64,000 nt of DNA from Calditrichota bacterium. Its GTDB lineage: Bacteria > Zhuqueibacterota > Zhuqueibacteria > Zhuqueibacterales > Geothermadaptataceae. Shown piece after piece: positions 20,559 through 41,486 of this stretch. A program made the position numbers and the translations under genes. The number at the start of each line of letters is the position of its first letter. The stretch's first letter is position 1. The stretch is from contig QQUE01000002.1 of the NCBI GenBank assembly GCA_008501765.1, positions 556,336-620,335 on the forward strand. Reading direction: 5' to 3'. Under the pieces are notes generated by a model. It saw only the letters and a list, made by a program, of their open reading frames with translations. It made no database searches and was not told the origin of the DNA.

Positions 20559-21206
20559 TTACAATTCACTATTTTTCAACTGGATGATTCGTGCATTCGT
20601 GCGCCGCAATCGCTGCATAGAAATATTACCGCTGGTGACAAGAAAACAATCAATTCCCATCGCCTGAGCCACTTCCCAGTCGTGCAGGGTATCGCCAATC
20701 ATGGCAATTTTTGAATCTGGCAGGTCAATAGCATGCATTAACTTTTTCCCGATCGCCACTTTGCTATCTCCATGATGATTTTCGGCACCAACTACAATTT
20801 GAAAGTGCTGGTGAATCTGAAAATATTCCAACGCTTTTTGCAAAAGTAACTGTGGATAGGCTGATAGCACGGATTGTTTTTTTCCGGCTTTACTCCGCGC
20901 CAGCAAAAAATCGTGACATTCAGGGTGCAAGCTGCATTGATGTTTTCGCTGCTCATACATTTCGATGAATTCTAAACTCACGCTTTCGTATTCTTTTGCG
21001 CTTACATCAAACCCGAGCTGTTCGTAGTAACCGCGCAACGGGAAGCCAAAAATTTCCCGGTGGCGTTCAGCTGTCAATTCAGGCAAATTTTTGTTGGCCA
21101 ATTGCTCATTCATTATTCGCAGATTCATGGCGACATCGTTAATTAATGTGCCGTTCCAATCCCAAATAATGTGTTCATATTTTTTAAACTCATTTGTGTT
21201 AAACAT
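20559..21206 (-). CDS. HAD-family phosphatase-like hydrolase
   Basis: About 215 residues of a HAD subclass I enzyme of the phosphoglycolate-phosphatase type. Motif I is IIWDWNGTL near residue 16, where the usual DxDGT is DxNGT. Motif II is VLSAYP, and motif IV IAMIGDTLHDWEVAQAMG with the paired Asp. The cap (AMNLRIMNEQL...REIFGFPLRGYYEQLGFD) is helical. The +2 Asp-to-Asn change occurs in a known HAD subset and may alter catalysis. ATG 21206 is chosen; an upstream TTG at 21224 would add six residues. It probably shares a transcript with the WbqC-like gene. Substrate unknown. Confidence 0.8.
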   Translation of the reverse strand: MFNTNEFKKYEHIIWDWNGTLINDVAMNLRIMNEQLANKNLPELTAERHREIFGFPLRGYYEQLGFDVSAKEYESVSLEFIEMYEQRKHQCSLHPECHDFLLARSKAGKKQSVLSAYPQLLLQKALEYFQIHQHFQIVVGAENHHGDSKVAIGKKLMHAIDLPDSKIAMIGDTLHDWEVAQAMGIDCFLVTSGNISMQRLRRTNARIIQLKNSEL

Positions 21207-21249
21207 ACAGACAGAAATTTCCAACCTTTATAATTAAAAAATTAAGGCT

Positions 21250-21415
21250 CTGTTTAAATAACAAGTTGATTTATAGCCTGATAAATTTCTCTCGCAGAGA
21301 ATGACTTAAAGATATTAAAAATAAAACTCTGTGGGCTTCGTGACTTTATGAGAGTTGTTGCCTGAATAATACTTCATTCCAAGCTGTTGGATAATTCATA
21401 CCGTTTTTTAAACAG
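21250..21415 (-). repeat. MITE-like intergenic repeat, copy A
   Basis: A 166-base element bounded by 13-base terminal inverted repeats with one mismatch (CTGTTTAAATAAC at 21250-21262 and GTTTTTTAAACAG at 21403-21415). Read on the minus strand, its interior aligns closely with the plus strand at 41341-41486, including CGGTATG, CTCTCAyAAAGyCACGAAG and CACAGAGTTTT. It lies just upstream of the HAD gene. No coding capacity is seen. Confidence 0.75.
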
Positions 21416-21470
21416 CGCGAAAATTAAAGTATTTGAGCACAATTTCATTTGCATGGTATCGCAGCTATCT

Positions 21471-21941
21471 TTAAAAAGTATTTCGCAGCACCTGGGGAAA
21501 TAGCGCAAGCACAGCGAAGCGAATGTAACGACCTACCATTCCCGAGGCAAAAAACCGGTAAAAATTAAGCTTGACAACTCCGGCCAGAATACTCACAACA
21601 TAAAAAGGGGGGAAGCCCACCGAGGCGCTTAAAAAAACAAAAGCATCCGATTTTCCCTGCCATTTTTCGAACTTCTTTTCAGCTTCGGCGAGCTTGGCTT
21701 CATACTTACCCATCGGGATATTCAGCGCGCCACGGCCGGCAAAATAAAGAATACCTTTTGCCAGCATTTGGCCGAAAGCAGAAACAAAAGCAATCAGCCA
21801 GATTGCCTCATCGCCGGACATGGCCGCAACACCAATTACAATTGCTTCAGCGTTTACAATCGGAATAAATCCACTGACAAAGCAAAGTATAAATGTAGAA
21901 ATATATAAATTCTCGGGAGTTATATAGTTTTCAAAATTCAT
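21471..21941 (-). CDS. VTT-domain (SNARE-associated/DedA-like) small membrane protein
   Basis: 156 residues with about four membrane helices. The VTT signature region covers CFVSGFIPIVNAEAIVIGVAAM, then FGQMLAKGILYFAGRGAL, a charged helix (KYEAKLAEAEKKFEKWQGKSD) and SASVGFPPFYVVSILAGVVKLNFYRF. This short form resembles YqaA-type proteins rather than full DedA. VTT proteins are linked to lipid scrambling and undecaprenyl phosphate recycling; that role here is inference. The ATG overlaps the maf stop by ATGA, so GT2, Maf and VTT form one operon. Confidence 0.8.
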   Translation of the reverse strand: MNFENYITPENLYISTFILCFVSGFIPIVNAEAIVIGVAAMSGDEAIWLIAFVSAFGQMLAKGILYFAGRGALNIPMGKYEAKLAEAEKKFEKWQGKSDAFVFLSASVGFPPFYVVSILAGVVKLNFYRFFASGMVGRYIRFAVLALFPQVLRNTF

Positions 21942-41170: not shown

Positions 41171-41265
41171 TAGCCTGAATAATTCTCACGCAAAGGCACG
41201 AAGTCCGCAAAGAAAATATTTAAATACTTATAAAACTTAATTTTGAGGGCTCTGTGAGAGATAAT
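41171..41265 (+). repeat. Partial intergenic repeat, copy C
   Basis: About 95 bases starting TAGCCTGAATAATTCTCACG and running through GGCACGAAGTCC and GCTCTGTGAG. It matches parts of the other two copies in the same orientation as copy A: the CCTGAATAAT end, the CACGAAG core and the CTCTGTG segment, but lacks the CTGTTTAAA terminus. It lies between prmA and the M28 peptidase gene, some 75 bases from copy B. Confidence 0.5.
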
Positions 41266-41340
41266 TTTAATAGAAAATTTAGTTTTTCTGAACGTTTAAT
41301 TTCGAGTATCGAATTACCAATAGGTTAAAAATATTTCGCT

Positions 41341-41486
41341 CTGTTTAAAAAACGGTATGCAGTACCCAACATCTTGGCATCAAGTTTTATGCAGGAAACA
41401 ATCTCTCACAAAGCCACGAAGTCCACAGAGTTTTTTTCTTAAATTTTTAAGCCATTCTTTGTGGCTCCGTATGGGAATTATTCAGG
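41341..41486 (+). repeat. MITE-like intergenic repeat, copy B
   Basis: Begins with the terminus CTGTTTAAAAAAC (41341-41353) and then matches the reverse complement of copy A with roughly three quarters identity by eye over about 140 bases, keeping CGGTATG, CTCTCACAAAGCCACGAAG and CACAGAGTTTT. It is in the opposite orientation to copy A. The far terminus is lost or replaced, because the element runs into the stop codon of the M28 peptidase gene (41487). Confidence 0.72.

Follow-up and report, generated by a model that had tools for sequence, protein, structure and literature searches.

The window, a stretch of 64,000 nucleotides, carries at positions 21246 to 21419 an element that is almost certainly one copy of a family of non-autonomous DNA transposons of the MITE kind. 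The element is short and lacks a transposase gene, has terminal inverted repeats, is flanked by a target duplication, and belongs to a set of multiple dispersed copies, which together are the features that define MITEs. A MITE-like non-autonomous transposon had been proposed in the first-pass annotation, and the many dispersed copies, the conserved ends, and the 8-bp target duplications all bear this out. The family is new, yet ordinary in kind; its interesting feature is its modular build: between the same ends, the host genome has interiors of five kinds, types A to E, that are unrelated to one another, and a sister species has a sixth.

The element at the window locus and its copies

The window element, copy A, is of type A and lies between the genes for a HAD-type hydrolase (20559-21224) and a VTT-domain protein (21471-21941), both on the minus strand. 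Its parts, together with a second copy and a related hairpin in the window, are as follows.

21246..21419, plus strand: type-A MITE of 174 bp, with end 2 at the left and end 1 at the right (search and alignment of copies)
21238..21245, no strand: left 8-bp target site duplication, AAAATTAA (sequence comparison of flanks)
21420..21427, no strand: right 8-bp target site duplication, AAAATTAA (sequence comparison of flanks)
21246..21281, plus strand: end 2, GGCTCTGTTTAAATAACAAGTTGATTTATAGCCTGA, partly common to other element types
21386..21419, minus strand: end 1, CGCGCTGTTTAAAAAACGGTATGAATTATCCAAC, partly common to other element types
21289..21363, plus strand: interior, CTCTGTG hairpin type (alignment of 17 copies and interior matches elsewhere)
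about 41337..41461, minus strand: copy B, a truncated type-A copy with end 1 at 41337 (match to copy A)
41173..41260, no strand: free-standing CTCTGTG-type hairpin without MITE ends (read from the sequence; partial match)

The first-pass annotation had the location right, but its limits of 21250-21415 fall slightly inside the true ones. The 13-base inverted core that it described at the ends is present: the sequence at 21246-21261 is GGCTCTGTTTAAATAA and that of the opposite end, in reverse complement, is CGCGCTGTTTAAAAAA. The inverted ends are imperfect, the AAAATTAA duplication is perfect on both sides, and the alignment of 17 copies reveals a shortened 5′ arm in the interior of copy A. As had been stated, there is no coding capacity: no stop-to-stop frame of at least 100 aa overlaps the element at this locus. 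Frames of at least 100 aa enter the element from outside in 4 of the 17 type-A loci, which is a matter of chance or gene overlap; an element of 180 bp has no transposase inside it. The suspected second copy in opposite orientation is real, with 109 of 129 bases identical to copy A over a match at 41334-41461 (E 1e-34); in this copy B, end 2 is not recognisable and a target duplication was not found. The free-standing hairpin at 41173-41260 is situated about 80 bases from it.

Against the host genome (5.9 Mb in 21 contigs), the type-A element yields 52 BLAST matches with E no greater than 10. Among them are 17 complete copies that have both ends, in addition to nested and truncated ones, so the family is dispersed through the genome at a copy number well beyond chance. 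Pairwise identity among the 17 averages 89% (range 80-97%). Their length, 173-188 bp, and that of type B, 307 bp, are both under the size of about 500 bp usual for MITEs.

A structural RNA or a REP-like element had been named as the alternative. On this view a functional repeat would have multiplied because its structure was useful, and the 17-copy consensus does fold to -55.5 kcal/mol. Yet none of the 35 predicted pairs covaries, with both sides changed, among the 17 copies, no Rfam family was matched in the window, and the folding of copy A barely beats that of shuffled sequences (z -0.97 and -1.52). A promoter- or terminator-like site was not found at copy A either, and the size of the element does not fit REP/REPIN sequences, which are palindromes of 20-40 bp that bear a GTAG or CGTC tag and are accompanied by a RAYT transposase. 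Given in addition the presence of target duplications, this explanation is most improbable. Promoter and terminator scans, covariation, and the weak folding give no sign of a host function at copy A, and selfish spread is the simplest account of the family.

Target site duplications

Thirty-four paired-end elements were chosen on the basis of their ends alone, without regard to their flanks. Identity of the 8-bp flanks in this set is 91%; when flanks were re-paired 1000 times, identity averaged 46% and never exceeded 60%. In a scan of duplication length, only 9 and 10 bp gave high values besides, and both contain the 8-bp register. An enlarged table, which adds two later finds, comprises 39 paired-end elements (36 from the host and 3 from the sister species); it omits unpaired copies (copy B of the window, the copy L022/L072 on contig C20, and L059) and the doubtful single ends L068, L082, and L117. 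Target duplications, which the first-pass annotation had marked as a feature to look for, are found with at most 2 mismatches in 37 of the 39 elements and are perfect in 21; the worst are those of L083 (3 mismatches) and L062 (4 mismatches). The duplications are 88% A/T, compared with 57% in the window; of 78, 60 have A at position 1 and 58 have T at position 8.

Such 8-bp duplications are the mark of a staggered-cut transposase. They argue against single-strand mechanisms of the IS200/IS605 kind, in which transposition is not known to produce a target duplication. For type B, four of the seven copies (L040-L046) have one duplication mismatch, invariably at the first or last base. This pattern hints at occasional 7-bp duplications or at a base carried beside the end, and is not well accounted for by plain mutation.

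Ends, relatives, and candidate mobilisers

The two ends are related but distinguishable, each about 25-30 bp long with a common core, GCTCTGTTTAA. In most cases one of them opens with C and its counterpart with G, end 2 starting with GGCTCT and end 1 with CGCTCT.

Among 60 genomes, the type-A query matched one, the host itself, with at most the best 14 candidates per genome scored. The end pattern, allowing up to 2 mismatches, matched three of the 60: the host, the same-genus genome G001 with five sites, and G031 with one site that has no partner end. The G001 elements have the same ends, their own sixth interior, and perfect 8-bp duplications in all three cases. A sequence-only end model of 25 positions, built from 49 of the 55 distinct ends with the six ends of L061 to L063 omitted, was run over 17 genomes and detected clear ends only in the host and G001. 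The exact end-1 pattern has no match in a large genome-contig collection, from which the host is possibly left out, and the exact end-2 pattern has none in a viral contig collection; a plasmid collection holds no match to type A, type B, or the G001 type. In the portions of the open-access literature that the search covered, the sequence of the present MITE is not described.

As to mechanism, a DDE transposase supplied in trans would recognise the ends and make cuts 8 bp apart in the two strands of an A/T-rich target, and filling of the gaps would then give rise to the duplication. A transposase with matching ends, which the first-pass annotation had suggested seeking, was not found, either by ends over the 17 genomes or among five transposase families (IS1595, IS4/IS5-type, IS256, IS6, and ISL3). 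The end model places no end pair at transposase spacing in these 17 genomes, and thus neither an autonomous copy nor an intact partner transposase was recovered. IS1595 (PF12762) is absent from the host, the one genome searched, and IS6 (PF13610) from all 8 genomes searched. PF01609 has a single match in the host, an IS5-like element (L073, G000:C10:121072-121503) that has other ends, AGAGCCTATCCGAAAACCTC, as read from the sequence. Of 17 places at which one end lacks a partner, L060 and L083 turned out to be additional elements and L059 and L115 truncated or contig-end copies; inspection of frames at nine of these places (L059, L060, L064-L067, and L116-L118) disclosed no transposase. At C8:216661/218351, two inverted ends 1.7 kb apart were considered as the limits of an autonomous element; this candidate was rejected, as it sits in ordinary genes, by our reading an ABC-type ATPase and its neighbours.

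An ISL3-type transposase, once present or located outside this assembly, is the first guess for the mobiliser, owing to the GGCTCT starts and the length of the duplications, and is put forward tentatively. According to the available portions of two sources, ISL3 elements begin with GGCTCT, and one of those listed has an 8-bp repeat (ISArsp7, PMC6305408; GGCTCTAT, PMC5398504). End 2 begins in the same way, and the same-family genome G003 has a contig that starts with AGGCTCTACTGG and carries an intact ISL3 frame of 414 aa. On the other hand, no ISL3 gene (PF01610) is present in the host or in the same-genus genomes G001 and G002, the ends diverge past the first six bases, and end 1 begins with CGCTCT instead. 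The G003 element, moreover, is visible at one end only and shares just GGCTCT; the same full-length inverted repeats together with a transposase, which would identify an ISL3 partner, were thus not encountered.

A less probable mobiliser, and an unlikely one, is an IS256-type transposase that now persists only as a pseudogene. PF00872 is represented in the host solely by broken remnants, with stops and frame breaks, at two places:

G000:C15:169227-169932: IS256-type remnant, L085 (profile match PF00872)
G000:C5:61891-62085: IS256-type remnant, L087 (profile match PF00872)

IS256 elements generate duplications of 8-9 bp, a length that agrees with the present family. Matching ends are nevertheless missing near the host remnants, and IS256 is missing from G001 to G006. 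In distant genomes, IS256 elements with readable ends (shared boundaries read) have other ends, and inverted-end searches around distant IS256 genes returned nothing usable.

Unlike interiors between shared ends

Fifteen further elements of the host, belonging to types B to E, have only the two ends in common, and their middles are unrelated. Type B, reached via paired short end matches, is represented by its seven copies, which are 98.7-100% identical, and an eighth type-B sequence forms part of a type-A chimera, L053. The near identity of the type-B copies implies that movement, and hence activity of the enzyme, is recent. The type C interior occurs at L047, type D at L048 and L063, and type E at L049, L060, L061, L062, and L083. 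When one interior per type was compared with all loci (BLAST, E 0.05), it hit members of the type it came from, along with copies nested in or adjacent to these loci, and never the other types.

The type-A interior also has a life apart from the ends. A search of the large genome-contig collection for its motif AAACTCTGTGNNCTYCGTGNCTTTGTG returned nine stretches, against about 0.004 exact matches expected in 257 billion bases (two strands, composition ignored). Four of them are from Flavobacterium, Indibacter, Chitinophagaceae, and Mongoliibacter; by phylum, we take four to be Bacteroidota and five Chloroflexota. The motif lies within a strong hairpin in six of the nine (L119 to L123 and L126), the hairpin being unclear in L124, L125, and L127, and the GCTCTGTTTAA end was not seen in 200 bases around each stretch. 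Within the host, hairpins of the same kind stand without ends at L054, L055, and L057, as well as at 41173-41260 in the window. The type-A middle is therefore part of a wider repeat, the ends being the family's own mark. One may ask whether the hairpin interiors are the true mobile units and the GCTCTGTTTAA ends mere passengers, as the occurrence of the motif alone in other phyla and the end-less hairpins of the host would allow. This is highly unlikely, for the 8-bp duplications adjoin the GCTCTGTTTAA ends and not the interiors.

If, instead, the ends carry the interiors, the ends would be the sole part needed by the transposase, and the middle would consequently be replaceable. The simplest route for an exchange of interiors, for which there are few intermediates, would begin with another hairpin repeat inserting into a copy and end with recombination or deletion. 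In L050, L051, and L052, a type-A element has received another repeat; the one in L052 is of type C, and its likely duplication of 9 bp, TATAGCCTG/TATACCCTG, was recognised by eye. The chimera L053 fits a type-B insertion into the A/T-rich loop of type A and subsequent recombination between both end-2 sequences. In all four, the outer duplications have 0 to 1 mismatches. It is on these intermediates, the nesting in three copies and one chimera, that the modular reading rests. We speculate, with some reserve, that one end pair acts as an all-purpose vehicle into which hairpin repeats found across distant phyla are loaded interchangeably; in a single lineage, nested insertion and recombination would thus repeatedly give rise to new MITE families with unchanged ends and new structured interiors. 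Were this so, transposon ends could offer the intergenic hairpin repeats of several phyla, as their cargo, a route of spread in addition to any mobility of their own. The target duplications of the family are unusually clear, its copies include young, old, and nested ones, and it has a relative in a sister species.

Several known systems share some of these features, as far as the available portions of the respective papers describe them. The Chunjie MITE of Geobacter uraniireducens is 178-235 bp long, mostly intergenic, and dispersed, and resembles the present family in its conserved inverted ends, direct repeats, and many partial copies; different interiors between the same ends are not mentioned in the portion available, and the comparison is by description only (PMC10969869). 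QMITE2 of Coxiella burnetii is likewise similar, with a length of about 190 bp, inverted ends, direct repeats of 7-9 bp, truncated REP-like copies, and other elements inserted in copies, but it belongs to another organism and, in this comparison by description only, has one interior family (PMC5896051). The TIMEs, miniature elements derived from Tn3, combine constant inverted ends with differing core modules in mosaic, non-autonomous elements at A/T-rich targets; they differ in having 38-bp Tn3-type ends, duplications of 5-6 bp, and cores that are plasmid segments or modules rather than hairpin repeats (PMC4133298). BOX, RUP, and SPRITE of Streptococcus pneumoniae are, again by description only, small repeats that form clusters and are inserted in each other (PMC10969869).

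Further repeats are associated with these loci. A second end pair, CTGGTTATCCAGTTAACTCAGC, bounds other hairpin interiors at L047, L052:243-542, and L073:1101-1322, with a likely 9-bp duplication; the elements so ended constitute a second MITE-like family in the host genome. Another repeat, with ACGTGAG/CTCACG ends and a CGGCGAGACGCC-type palindrome, is located inside a type-A copy (L051:300-470) and recurs beside a free CTCTGTG hairpin at L057:395-545.
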